Shown here in pieces: positions 29,352 through 41,794 of a stretch of DNA of 64,000 nt. Numbering within the stretch: position 1 is the stretch's first letter; each line of letters starts with the position of its first letter. The notes below the pieces were generated by a model, which was not told the origin of the DNA, ran no database searches, and was given only the letters and a program-made list of their open reading frames with translations. This DNA comes from Nakamurella sp. PAMC28650 (lineage in GTDB: Bacteria; Actinomycetota; Actinomycetes; Mycobacteriales; Nakamurellaceae), in NCBI RefSeq assembly GCF_014303395.1, contig NZ_CP060298.1, positions 4,359,001 to 4,423,000 on the forward strand. Reading direction: 5' to 3'. A program made the translations under genes and the position numbers.

Positions 29352-29424
29352 TCCTCCGTAGCTCAATTGGCAGAGCATCCGACTGTTAATCGGACGGTTA
29401 CTGGTTCGAGTCCAGTCGGGGGAG
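29352..29424 (+). tRNA. tRNA-Asn (anticodon GUU)
   Basis: Cloverleaf: acceptor TCCTCCG with CGGGGGA, D-arm GCTC-AATTGGCA-GAGC, anticodon stem TCCGA/TCGGA with loop CTGTTAA (anticodon GTT), T-arm CTGGTTCGAGTCCAG. Its 3' half (from 29382) is the attachment site of the integrated element and has been kept functional by the element's own copy of these bases. Confidence 0.95.
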
Positions 29425-29425
29425 C
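29382..29425 (+). repeat. attL: 44-bp attachment core in tRNA-Asn
   Basis: The 44 bases from ACTGTTAATCGG to GGGGGAGC are identical to 41751-41794. They cover the anticodon loop to the 3' end of tRNA-Asn. The flanks differ on both sides, so the boundaries are clear. Confidence 0.95.
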
Positions 29426-29496
29426 GTGTATTACAGTAGGTCAGAGGCGGTCTCGGGCATCAGCCCGAAGGTCGCCACTGTCATTTCCGGGGCCGA

Positions 29497-29518
29497 TGTC
29501 AACTAGATGTCAACTAGC
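29497..29518. promoter_or_regulatory. Paired 11-bp boxes inside attL
   Basis: TGTCAACTAGA (29497-29507) is directly followed by TGTCAACTAGC (29508-29518). The same arrangement occurs at 34066-34087 and 41614-41635. Position 72 bp inside attL suggests arm-type integrase or excisionase sites. The second box overlaps the integrase stop codon. Confidence 0.65.
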
Positions 29519-30713
29519 AAATTCCGAGGGCCCTTGACAGTGCCTCTCCTGCCACATCGGTGCCCCCTGGGAGGCTGTGGCCGTACACACTCAGAGTCAC
29601 GGCCGGGTTGGCGTGTCCGAGGACGGCCGCGACGATACCGGGGCTGATACCGGCGCCCAGCATGAAGCTGGCGACGCCATGTCGCAGGTCGTGCAGGCGG
29701 ATGACGCGCACCCCTGCGGCCTTGCACAGCCTCGTGAAGCGATCGGAGACGTGGTCAGGCTTCACCGGGTTGCCGTCCGGCATGGTGAAGACATAGCCGG
29801 AGTCGGTCCAGGCGCTCCCCCACGCCAGGCGTTCCTCAAGCTGTCGCCGGCGGTGGGCCCGCAGGACGGCCACCAGACTGGGGTCCAGCGGGACCCGTCG
29901 CTGGCCCGCAGCCGTTTTCGGGGTCGAGGTCTGGATGGAAGTACCCCCGACGACGATCCGTGTCTCCAGGACGAACAGGTGGCCCGCGTCGAGGTCAACC
30001 CGGTCCCACTTCAGCCCGCAGATCTCTCCCCGGCGCATCCCGCGGGCGGCACCGAGTAGGTACAGGGCCGCGAGCCGGTCCACCGTCACGTAGGAAATGA
30101 ACTTGGCGGCATCTTCACGCGACCAGATGTTGTCGACGATCGTCTTGGGCGCCGCGGGGATGGTGGCAGCGGCCGCCGGGTTCCGACGGACGAGATTCAC
30201 GCCGTGAGGATCAGCGGCCCACTTGCACGCCAGTCGCAACACGACGCCGGCCAGTTGCACCGACCTGGGAGACAGCGGGCCACCCTTTTTGCTGCCCGTC
30301 TTGCCGAGCTCCGTCATCCAGGCGTTGACGGCCGACGTCGTCAGCGCGTCGACGCGCACGGCACCCATTTTCGGAAAGATCCACGCCTCAGCAGTGTTGC
30401 GGTACCCGGCGAGGGTGCTTGCCCGCTTCCCGGCCAGTGCTCTCTCTTCAAGCCACTGTTCGACGACGTTGCGAACGGTCAGCTTTGCGTCCGGGCCCTG
30501 CGCGGCGTCGGTGCCGTTCTTGCCGATCTGCTCGTTGACGTAGAGCTGAGCTTCCTTCTGGATGCGGAAGCCACCCTTGGAGCGCTGGATGCGCCTGCCC
30601 TCGACGGCCGGGTCCGGGAACGACCAGATGGCAGTGAACGTCTCGCCGCGCTTCCGCACAGACCCGGCGCCCGCCTTGGCCCTTGTCTTGGTCTTCGCCT
30701 CCGTGGTCGTCAT
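29514..30713 (-). CDS. Tyrosine-type site-specific integrase
   Basis: 399 residues. An AP2-like/arm-binding N terminus (FTAIWSFPDPAVEGRRIQRSK) and a SAM-like core-binding domain (about 75-185) precede the catalytic domain. Catalytic residues: Arg227 in GMRRGEICGLKW, His341 and Arg344 in LHDLRH, His367 in VLGHANP and nucleophile Tyr377 in SVYGHS. It lies with its 3' end 89 bp from attL, the usual place, and would recombine attP with the tRNA-Asn site. Its ATG overlaps the stop of the preceding small gene as ATGA. Confidence 0.95.
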   Translation of the reverse strand: MTTTEAKTKTRAKAGAGSVRKRGETFTAIWSFPDPAVEGRRIQRSKGGFRIQKEAQLYVNEQIGKNGTDAAQGPDAKLTVRNVVEQWLEERALAGKRASTLAGYRNTAEAWIFPKMGAVRVDALTTSAVNAWMTELGKTGSKKGGPLSPRSVQLAGVVLRLACKWAADPHGVNLVRRNPAAAATIPAAPKTIVDNIWSREDAAKFISYVTVDRLAALYLLGAARGMRRGEICGLKWDRVDLDAGHLFVLETRIVVGGTSIQTSTPKTAAGQRRVPLDPSLVAVLRAHRRRQLEERLAWGSAWTDSGYVFTMPDGNPVKPDHVSDRFTRLCKAAGVRVIRLHDLRHGVASFMLGAGISPGIVAAVLGHANPAVTLSVYGHSLPGGTDVAGEALSRALGIC

Positions 30714-30919
30714 GACGGCCGCTGGTAGAGGAAAGCCTCGACCTCGTCAGCGGTTGCCCCGTACTTACCGCCGAGGACCGCGTCGCCGGCCTCGTTTCGG
30801 AGCCAGATCCTGCCGAAGTCTAGGGCGTCTGGATCCCGCCGCGCTGACTTCTGAAATCTGAGCCCCTGTCGGGACGCTTTGCGCCGCAACGTGATTTCGT
30901 GCTTCTCTGCCACTTTCAT
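30710..30919 (-). CDS. Small protein coupled to the integrase
   Basis: 69 residues from ATG at 30919 (an upstream ATG at 30979 is in frame). KHEITLRRKASRQGLRFQKSARRDPDALDFGRIWLRN followed by TADEVEAFLYQR resembles short actinobacterial proteins found beside integrases. There is no clear helix-turn-helix. Its stop overlaps the integrase start (ATGA), so the two are co-expressed; a recombination-directionality or accessory role is possible but unproven. Confidence 0.65.
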   Translation of the reverse strand: MKVAEKHEITLRRKASRQGLRFQKSARRDPDALDFGRIWLRNEAGDAVLGGKYGATADEVEAFLYQRPS

Positions 30920-31333
30920 CCTCCCGGTCTCCGGTGTGTTGCTAGGAATGACGCTATACCGTTGCCGACCAAAGCGCAACCCGAAGTGTCACCAGACAGG
31001 ATACCTGGCCAGGTTGGACAGGGAATCTGTCCTCTTAGTCCGTACGGGTGAATCTTTTGCGAGCCTTGACACTGAGATTGGCGGGTATGTATCCACCTTC
31101 TCCAATCAGAAGGTTGACGTCATGTCGCATCCCTTTCGTGCTTAATGTCCCCCAACGGGCTCATTTAGATACGCATACACACAGCATGCTATGCCGCGGC
31201 GCGGACCCGTTCTTGGACACCAAACCCCCTGGCTGGAGGGCAATCTCGGCTTGAGGACCGAGGCCGACGTGTGGTCTAGTAGCACTGTCGCCACGATGAA
31301 CGTGGAACGTTATACCACAGAGGGGGTCGACAC
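30920..31333. promoter_or_regulatory. Divergent control region of the element
   Basis: This gap separates the leftward integrase operon from the rightward operon, so it must hold both promoters. TTGACA at 31066-31071 with TATGTAT at 31086-31092 is a weak promoter candidate (short spacing). GTTATACC near 31309 precedes the first rightward gene. No repressor gene faces it, which is unusual for a prophage. Confidence 0.45.
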
Positions 31334-40522: not shown

Positions 40523-40893
40523 TCAGTACCGGGCTTCGACCTCGGCGCGCATCGCCGCGTTCCTCGGCACCCCATACCGGTAGGCTTTAGGATTCGCACC
40601 CCACTCGGTGATGCTGGCCCGCACCCACCTGGCCGCCTCGTGGTCATGGTCGGCCACCGCATGCACGTCGCCACCCACAAGGCCGCACAGACGTCCTCAG
40701 GGGCACCGGAGCGGCAGTAGTGAACATAGGTTTCGTGCAGCTCCGACGCCAAGCGCTCCGCACGGACGTCGGCCTCCCGGCCGTAGGTCAGCGGCGGCCT
40801 GTTGTCGTAGCGGCTCGGCGCCAATAGGTGGTTGATGCGCTCCTGCGCTTCCTGCTGCAGGTAAAACTCGGTGGACCGCTCGGTTGAGGGCAT
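40523..40893 (-). pseudogene. Small hypothetical gene with a frameshift
   Basis: Starts ATG 40893 (MPSTERSTEFYLQQEAQERI) and reads well to EDVCAAL near 40690. From about 40680 the coding character continues in another frame as GGDVHAVADHDHEAARWVRASI and NPKAYRYGVPRNAAMRAEV to a stop at 40523. One indel restores about 123 residues. Alternatively the second part is a separate 50-residue gene with a GTG start. No family recognised. Confidence 0.55.
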
Positions 40894-40962
40894 GGCTGTG
40901 CCTTTCTCTGTATGTGACGAAGCTTGGGGGTGTGACGAAATGCGTCCGTACGATGAAGGAAC

Positions 40963-41556
40963 TCAGCAGCTCGCGGGCTGCTGCTGTGACATCAGGTCGA
41001 AACCCTTCGGCACCCGGTTCCAGGCTGCGGTGACGCCGGGGTGGTTGATGAACGCCAGGAGCAGCTCGTCGGCCTCGAGGTGCGCGTAGCGCTCGGAGAG
41101 TTTCGCGGCCTGCTCCAGCCGCAGGATCAGGCCGCCGATGGTCATGATGTTGCCCATTGCGGTGCTCCGTTCAGATGGTGGTTGGGGGGTCACGACGCGC
41201 GTGGTTTGGCGGTCCCGCCAAGCCAACGGGGGGACGTCAAGCCTGGCGGGACCTGCAGGAGGGGTTCGATCAAAGATCGCCCGCACACCTCCCGCTCCTT
41301 CAGTATGCGCGCCCCTGCGGGTCTGGCAGATGACAGCATGTGCCGCCCGGCCCACCGGACCTTCAGAGGCCCGCCCGCAGGTCGCACAGATCCAGCTCAT
41401 GTGCGCGGTACCGTCCTCGACGGCTCGGGCGCCGGCTATGAACCACTGGCCTACCCAGCCGCAGCAACACACAGCCCGTGCGGGCCGTAGTTGCCCGTCG
41501 ATGGTGCGCTCCACGTGGCAACGGTGGCTTTGGACGGTTGTGAGGGATTGGGTCAT
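40963..41556 (-). CDS. Hypothetical protein with two Cys-rich motifs
   Basis: 197 residues from ATG at 41556. The N-terminal half has paired cysteines (AVCCCGWVGQW, WICATCGRASEG), probably zinc-binding. The C-terminal part (MGNIMTIGGLILRLEQAAKLSERYAHLEADELLLAFINH) could be a separate gene starting at 41160, where GGAGC precedes ATG. The linker between them is poor in protein character, so two genes are possible. Last gene before attR. Confidence 0.5.
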   Translation of the reverse strand: MTQSLTTVQSHRCHVERTIDGQLRPARAVCCCGWVGQWFIAGARAVEDGTAHMSWICATCGRASEGPVGRAAHAVICQTRRGAHTEGAGGVRAIFDRTPPAGPARLDVPPLAWRDRQTTRVVTPQPPSERSTAMGNIMTIGGLILRLEQAAKLSERYAHLEADELLLAFINHPGVTAAWNRVPKGFDLMSQQQPASC

Positions 41557-41613
41557 GGGGGCGCTCTTCTCACTCAGGGTGATGGCGGGTAAGTTGATTT
41601 GGTGCCCGGCGGT

Positions 41614-41635
41614 TGTCAACTGGATGTCAACCCGA
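41614..41635. promoter_or_regulatory. Paired 11-bp boxes inside attR
   Basis: TGTCAACTGGA (41614-41624) directly followed by TGTCAACCCGA (41625-41635). Same layout as the pair inside attL and the internal pair at 34066-34087. Likely arm-type sites for the integrase or another element protein. Confidence 0.65.
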
Positions 41636-41750
41636 CTTGGCCGAACGGTGCCTAACTGCTTACAACGGGCTGGCACGTGTAGGACCGAAACACCAAGTGC
41701 GGCAACAAGTAAGCTCAACTGAACAGAACCTAAAGCGCGTGCTTCCTCAA

Positions 41751-41794
41751 ACTGTTAATCGGACGGTTACTGGTTCGAGTCCAGTCGGGGGAGC
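41751..41794 (+). repeat. attR: 44-bp copy of the tRNA-Asn 3' half
   Basis: Identical to 29382-29425. It is the displaced host 3' end of the tRNA gene and marks the right boundary of the element. Confidence 0.95.

Follow-up and report, generated by a model that had tools for sequence, protein, structure and literature searches.

We have analysed a 64,000-nucleotide stretch of the actinobacterium Nakamurella sp. PAMC28650 (contig NZ_CP060298.1, positions 4,359,001 to 4,423,000), which lies in a host chromosome of 5.63 Mb in a single contig. The whole stretch is called the window here, and coordinates count from its first letter. A 12.4-kb island in a tRNA-Asn gene of the window is probably a phage satellite in its integrated state, with a DNA packaging motor of its own and a shell taken from a helper. 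It is a mobile element with genes for integration and replication and no complete set of particle genes, as satellites in general are. Because it has its own motor and no recognisable shell, it probably must borrow the particle of another virus. The satellites described in the available text of two papers either borrow the motor of a helper or bring capsid and motor together (PMC10690885, PMC10803314).

The island and its packaging motor

The features that carry the argument are these.

29352..29425, + strand: tRNA-Asn (GTT), the intact target, called by ARAGORN; its 3' 44 nt are attL
29382..29425, + strand: attL, one copy of the 44-bp repeat (repeat search and Markov simulation)
29514..30713, - strand: tyrosine integrase, 399 aa (PF00589 1.9e-22; phrog_1 1.4e-63)
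32436..33752, + strand: DUF3987 replication ATPase/helicase, 438 aa (PF13148 1.1e-6; phrog_11515 5.5e-60)
35420..35926, + strand: TerS-like protein with an N-terminal CxxC..H motif, directly upstream of TerL and kept upstream of the ATPase in relatives
35907..36689, + strand: ATPase subunit of TerL, 260 aa (PF03237 1.1e-12; phrog_7579 7e-58); alternative start at 35892
36686..37339, + strand: nuclease subunit of TerL, 217 aa (phrog_27743 2.9e-30, labelled unknown function; TerL structure matches)
41751..41794, + strand: attR, the exact 44-bp repeat (repeat search and empty-site alignment)

A 44-bp direct repeat, identical in its two copies (29382-29425 and 41751-41794; spacing 12,369), marks the ends of the island. 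We simulated this 15.5-kb region 40 times with a first-order Markov model; the longest direct repeat then had a mean length of 13.9 and a maximum of 16. Two genomes of the same genus, G009 and G004, have the empty site, with the right-flank gene directly after tRNA-Asn, so we regard the 12.4 kb as an insertion. In a third aligned site (G015) the tRNA is present and the alignment goes no further. A scan of 13 right-flank loci showed tRNA-Asn at 7 of them, in 6 genomes; none is present at the G001 locus, whose right flank is the most similar. GC content is 0.637 in the island, 0.667 in the left flank and 0.70 in the right flank.

Judged from its sequence, the large terminase is made of two genes, one for the ATPase and one for the nuclease, which share an ATGA in a 4-bp overlap (36686-36689). 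The ATPase profile matches the solved TerL 4zni (1.3e-19) and the T4-type gp17 3ezk (1.2e-15), and G54-K55 and D143-E144, which we take to be Walker A and B, are invariant across 16 ATPases. The nuclease profile matches the solved TerL chains 5m1q, 5m1f and 5tge (3.4e-9 to 4.7e-9), presumably the nuclease domains of G20c/P74-26 TerL. Of 50,697 phage records, 17 encode a TerL whose C-terminal part aligns with the nuclease; most of the 17 belong to Thermus phages, P74-26 and G20c among them. Its D14, D76 and D174, which we assume to be the catalytic residues, are invariant in three sequences from the genus.

We reject a frameshift or sequencing error in TerL: of 45 related loci gathered by ATPase similarity, 30 have the split too, and in 19 of these 30 the overlap is again exactly 4 bp. 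These counts come from a home-made gene caller, and the set contains two near-duplicate pairs (L043/L044 and L037/L057). The remaining 15 loci comprise 13 of other form and two, L051 and L205, without a called ATPase. TerL is one gene in the four cultured homologues whose maps were inspected (Riverbug, MMP17, Tunturi_4 and phiFa), and the nuclease of the uncultured phage L059 had no match among the phage records. Four of the loci (L038, L043, L044 and L147) have two tandem nuclease-like genes behind the terminase ATPase.

We call the gene in front of the motor TerS-like on the basis of its position, its conservation and a non-significant resemblance in fold. Its AlphaFold2 (AF2) model has a pLDDT of 80 and is all-helical, with no significant match in PDB or BFVD. 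In those two-gene loci for which such a gene is called, both motor genes follow it, with other genes between in L039, and the cassette of the window has the order TerS-like gene, ATPase, nuclease, as in related two-gene loci.

An original prediction made by eye from the letters had described the exact duplication in tRNA-Asn around a 12.4-kb element, and the repeat search, the simulation and the empty sites in G009 and G004 bear it out. The integrase, replication-type ATPase and terminase that it named are all matched by Pfam and PHROG families. It had read the large terminase as one gene; the ATPase is there, and the nuclease behind it had been overlooked. Its small terminase-like gene is upheld by position and conservation and not by any significant fold match. 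Its excisionase-like gene resembles a gene of another island and matches no family.

The search for particle genes

No portal, capsid or protease gene was found by sequence in the island, no tail or lysis gene among its scanned open reading frames (ORFs), and no tape measure was detectable. The Pfam and PHROG scans agree with the earlier reading that no capsid, portal, protease, tail or lysis gene is recognisable. A controlled search used phrog_64 and phrog_212, the portal and capsid families of two-gene-terminase phages, which match both of 2 control phage records and none of 6 genomes or 5 plasmids. Among the 17 genomes of the genus PF04860 matches 2 and PF05065 matches 4. A wider pool held 63 otherwise unassigned proteins of seven islands, with integrases, helicases, TerS, TerL and some other ORFs left out. 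In Pfam these gave seven families, none of them capsid, portal or protease, and in PHROGs the 25 of 83 families listed were mostly tape measures. A second pool combined proteins of six viral contigs with those of four plasmids, 91 in all. Among the 25 of 79 PHROG families listed for it none was portal or capsid, and tail-fibre families were present.

Two genes just upstream of the TerS-like gene would have overturned the original prediction, by its own account, had they proved to be capsid or portal homologues.

34141..34917, + strand: 258-aa protein, no assigned function (phrog_5120 4e-4, unknown function); low-confidence model all-helical
34914..35417, + strand: 167-aa protein, no assigned function, no Pfam or PHROG family match

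Neither has a portal or capsid match in Pfam or PHROGs, searches made at the level of sequence. The fold prediction for 34141-34917 has a pLDDT of 47, too poor to decide on a capsid or portal fold. This protein has no match in the 16 other genomes of the genus and no close relative among viral contigs in a single-protein search that reaches close relatives only. One could argue from these two genes, of which the sole model is weak, that the island is an autonomous element or tiny phage with a capsid too diverged to recognise. However, neither protein matches a family of known function, the first is absent from the rest of the genus, its low-confidence model is all-helical, and no tail or lysis gene accompanies them in the island. 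We consider this improbable.

The island also shows no capsid-resizing gene by family match, the model of 34141-34917 (pLDDT 47) being poor. P4-like satellites have the capsid genes sid and psu and an alpha primase; no such name occurs among the PHROG hits of the scanned ORFs, and no gene-by-gene search was made for them. As to a resident helper, the window's genome has no match for PF04860, phrog_64 or phrog_212, and an HK97-type capsid gene is present in a second island of the same genome (L179; G000:C1:2939000-2958900). That island spans 4039-11703 of its locus, is 7.6 kb long and lies in a tRNA-Val between 37-nt repeats (92%). It has an integrase and the capsid gene and, by eye, no terminase or portal, a gene set complementary to that of the window island.

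Relatives and known satellites

The relatives fall into two classes. Some are uncultured phages that have both portal and capsid; the others are islands or closed plasmids, mostly of 11-16 kb, in which neither was found. In the same genus, G009 has a 13.2-kb island in tRNA-Leu between 23-bp repeats with matches for a helix-turn-helix protein, a helicase, a tape measure (3.4e-8) and a tail chaperone. G006 has one with a tape-measure match at 1.8e-25 and no flanking repeat found. G110, from another family, has a 15.0-kb island in tRNA-Thr between 51-bp repeats that agree at 96%. A protein of 750 aa encoded there has matches among actinophage tape measures and is 46% identical over half its length to that of Parvaparticeps. 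No portal or capsid was found in any of these three. Nor was either found in circular plasmids that have a two-gene TerL and measure 11.2, 14.9 and 16.3 kb, or in the larger Salinibacter plasmid pSR31. The Salinibacter plasmids pSR11 and pSR14 have tape-measure matches at 2e-8 and 3e-10 respectively, scores that helical proteins can reach by composition. The 16.3-kb circle of Streptomyces virginiae has no tape measure noted. A terminase on pSR31 had been mentioned earlier in the available text of PMC6060240. Cousins with a one-gene TerL follow the same plan: Rhodococcus pDJL3 (15.9 kb, annotated tape measure) and the chromosomal loci L206, L207 and L208, whose tape-measure families come from the pooled scan and are not assigned per locus. 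End repeats were sought in L206, the only one of these three loci so examined, and none was found. In L202, a G110 island, at 11933-12706 and in L208, also from G110, at 7056-7832, proteins of 257/258 aa that are alike by eye stand between terminase and tape measure; they are possible scaffold or capsid-resizing candidates.

The viral contigs are another matter, and the idea that all IMG/VR matches are satellites is rejected since several have portal, scaffold or capsid genes. Such genes occur in at least L033, L034, L036, L037/L057, L039, L040, L042, L047, L055 and L059; a protease-like gene is present in L041, and L049 shows one that resembles a tail-fibre gene. One structural-gene search of the contigs used L059, L047 and L055 as seeds. 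We kept L035, L038, L043-L046, L048, L049, L054, L056 and L058 out of the satellite count. In all, 302 of 347 candidate stretches encode a relative; we retained the best 80 and looked closely at the first 29.

The island lacks the portal, capsid, tail and lysis genes of a complete prophage, and one might instead take it for the remains of one: a two-gene-terminase prophage whose structural genes were deleted, now stuck or able only to excise itself. Uncultured phages such as L059 share the order TerS, ATPase, nuclease and go on to portal, scaffold and capsid, which speaks for this view. Yet the scanned ORFs hold no remnant of portal, capsid or tail, both att copies are exact and the motif residues are intact. 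The same reduced plan is also found at tRNA-Leu, at tRNA-Thr and on closed plasmids of 11-16 kb, which is unlikely to come from random decay. Since islands with clean ends and closed plasmids repeat this plan, we believe a degraded prophage is less likely than a satellite, and on the whole unlikely. The original prediction would have been overturned if close relatives held the locus within a full-length prophage. The terminase cassettes of G009, G006, G110 and the plasmids sit in elements with no portal or capsid found, while a two-gene terminase does stand beside portal and capsid in the uncultured phages.

The ATPase tree bears on this question as well. Its 34 rows were labelled by hand, and L056, L058 and L204 were called phage by gene sizes or by eye. 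Groups are formed by three islands, by three Salinibacter plasmids and by four one-gene elements; the window TerL is an isolated branch and the Streptomyces row a long one. The 12 capsid-less rows need 5 changes and form a single group in 0 of 200 bootstrap trees, a result that fits repeated loss. The satellites as one clade are thus not supported, though the well-supported branches force only 1 change and by themselves allow one origin. We take it that capsid-less elements arose, or exchanged their motors, on several occasions, with the window island as a separate lineage. Such ATPase genes are uncommon: at E<=1e-15 a profile of 16 ATPases has matches, one-gene forms included, in 9 of the 397 genomes searched in the order and in 8 of the 396 that make up a phylum sample. 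With the window ATPase as the query, 6 of 101 relatives match at E<=0.001. A three-row profile at E<=0.001 matches 47 of 394 genomes of the class and is strong only in the window's own.

Phage-inducible chromosomal islands (PICIs) and the Staphylococcus aureus pathogenicity islands (SaPIs) have an att site with an integrase and a replication gene. The window island likewise is att-flanked with both genes and, unlike them, has a TerL of its own. As the available text of PMC10690885 describes them, some SaPIs redirect packaging with their own TerS and the helper's motor is used, whereas the window island carries both TerL halves. The capsid-forming cf-PICIs of the same text are alike in having TerS, TerL and HNH in one small element. 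They differ in having a capsid, protease, portal and connectors of their own; none of these was found here. The Streptomyces phage satellites MulchRoom and MiniFlayer, in the part of PMC10690885 that treats them, are also actinobacterial, with small and large terminase and, in MulchRoom, a tyrosine integrase. Both encode a portal, a capsid and a scaffold but lack a primase homologue; the window island is the reverse, with a DUF3987 gene and neither portal nor capsid found. By these tests the island fits none of the definitions of PICI, cf-PICI or MulchRoom/MiniFlayer. PICMIs are small satellites too. The accessible part of PMC10803314 reports no packaging-redirecting or capsid-remodelling gene in them, and no capsid-remodelling gene was found in our island; it also finds no terS homologue there, whereas this island has a TerS-like gene and TerL. 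VEIMEs and tycheposons, named in the available text of a review (PMC11389934), are outside the scope of this gene-level comparison.

The Thermus and Meiothermus phages Riverbug, MMP17, phiFa and P74-26 have a homologous TerL, with the ATPase 47% identical to Riverbug and MMP17 and the nuclease 25-31% to the Thermus/Meiothermus TerL. In Riverbug, MMP17 and phiFa it is one gene within a phage genome. The uncultured phages L059, L036, L042 and L057 from IMG/VR share the order TerS, ATPase, nuclease and differ in that portal, scaffold and capsid come next. As far as the available text of PMC10690885 and PMC10803314 goes, known families use TerS, another redirecting protein, none, or TerL together with capsid genes, so the earlier statement that packaging genes without particle genes are the hallmark of satellites was too strong. 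Among the matches listed in the literature searched, as far as its text was available and with few subscription journals covered, we found no paper on a satellite with TerL but without capsid and none on a two-gene TerL.

The terminase might serve some other purpose, such as DNA processing or interference with the packaging of incoming phages, in a genomic island or plasmid-like element that transfers without virions. The cargo-like ion channel and the HNH nuclease with its hydrophobic N-terminus would suit such a role, as would the presence of the same cassette on plasmids with ParA. Against it, the TerS-like gene, where called, lies upstream of both motor genes (L039 again having other genes between), and tape-measure matches in several relatives are hard to explain without particles. 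We regard this as very improbable.

Several observations weigh against a satellite with its own motor. No particle, helper, excision or transfer was seen. The best PDB match of the TerS-like model, Sf6 TerS 3hef, has a non-significant E of 0.63, and the genes at 34141-35417 could be a very diverged structural module. PF04860 matched 0 of 13 records and missed even the portals of the two control phages, so its absence says little for the two-gene group. The PF05065 search, which covered the genus, has matches in G006 and in the genome that contains the window, though these lie far from the islands. An endolysin family matches 2 of the 63 pooled proteins, and the PHROG results show no more than 25 of 83 families for this pool and 25 of 79 for the other. 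The plasmid pSR31 with the same cassette is 31.6 kb and not small. Finally, the window TerL does not group with those of the two same-genus islands, so the kinship with them is one of cassette and not of shared recent ancestry.

Other genes, a proposed life cycle and its significance

The other features of the island are as follows.

30710..30913, - strand: small ORF, 67 aa, no assigned function (home-made gene caller; a 69-aa form has no Pfam or PHROG family match)
31334..31675, + strand: 113-aa protein of a phage family of unknown function (phrog_2842 2.8e-5)
31672..31923, + strand: excisionase-like protein, 83 aa, no Pfam or PHROG family match, similar to the xis-like gene of island L202
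31939..32439, + strand: 166-aa protein with a weak C-terminal helix-turn-helix (PF13384 0.043, below cut-off; phmmer 0.0048 to the L202 gene at 6903-7325)
33753..34140, no strand: origin-like non-coding stretch, TGTCCCC iterons either side of AT-rich 33800-33859 (GC 0.38)
37487..38299, + strand: membrane ion channel (PF07885 1.2e-15)
38446..39222, + strand: HNH nuclease with two N-terminal hydrophobic segments (PF01844 1.4e-12; hydropathy)
39840..40451, - strand: 203-aa protein with an N-terminal hydrophobic segment, no assigned function (family scans and hydropathy)
40963..41718, - strand: ORF with a Cys-rich, Zn-ribbon-like segment, of which the gene caller retains only 40963-41157

The integrase is closest, among the loci compared, to those of the G110 islands L202 and L208. 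The excisionase-like label comes solely from similarity to the L202 gene (BLASTP 9e-6 in a single comparison, phmmer 8e-4). No repressor was recognised in the island. The DUF3987 protein corresponds to the C-terminal part of phage DNA primase/polymerases and is 41% identical to that of Gordonia phage Jojo24. It has 65 phage relatives, 35 of them named Mycobacterium phages and 26 Gordonia phages, and no relative in viral contigs by a single-protein search that reaches close relatives only. Between its gene and the next fall 6 of the 11 TGTCCCC copies of the 64-kb window, and by this pattern of letters the stretch at 33753-34140 looks like a replication origin. To the right of the terminase, the ion channel and the HNH nuclease are probably cargo; PADLOC on ten proteins gave weak HNH matches only. 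The Cys-rich segment (41296-41391, - strand) is shared with L179 (11092-11565, - strand) at 56% over 32 aa.

The island had also been described as free of insertion sequences beside a left neighbourhood full of them. Among 20 scanned ORFs, of which 17 belong to the element, none matches a transposase family, and the rich left side was judged by eye from translations. Two opposite-strand ORFs of the window (8341-9342 and 9919-11163) have identical N-terminal sequence and are transposase-like by eye, and tandem-like 20-bp units lie at 29109-29228, just left of tRNA-Asn.

If the island is a satellite with its own motor, its cycle might run as follows. After induction or infection by a helper, the integrase and the excisionase-like protein would excise it, and the DUF3987 helicase would replicate it from the iteron-rich stretch downstream of its own gene. 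The TerS-like protein would select island DNA. The ATPase and nuclease from the overlapping genes would come together as a motor, attach to the portal of a helper prohead and fill that prohead, with portal, shell, tail and lysis supplied by the helper. The best candidate for the helper is an uncultured phage with a two-gene terminase; its portal ought to fit the motor of the island.

We also put forward, tentatively and at somewhat less than an even chance, that the island belongs to an unnamed and widespread class of satellites. Its members would have their own motor (TerS with a two-gene TerL, or a one-gene TerL in the cousins) and often their own tape measure, leaving helpers to supply only portal, shell and the remaining parts of the tail. 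In Actinomycetota they would sit as islands in tRNA genes, and in Salinibacter, Streptomyces and Rhodococcus they would exist as plasmids of 11-16 kb; the window island would be a motor-only member. If this is true, members of the class dock a foreign motor on the helper portal, and those with a tape measure would build tails of a length set by the satellite. The tail-length idea is limited to the relatives, because the window element has no detectable tape measure.

A natural two-protein large terminase would let ATPase and nuclease be studied apart. Searches keyed on capsids or on TerS alone may miss such elements. The relatives with a tape-measure match and no capsid found would offer a way to ask how the tail length of a mixed particle is set, and the closed Salinibacter and Rhodococcus plasmids offer test hosts. 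A motor-only satellite would have to dock on the portal of another phage, which makes the compatibility of motor and portal directly testable.

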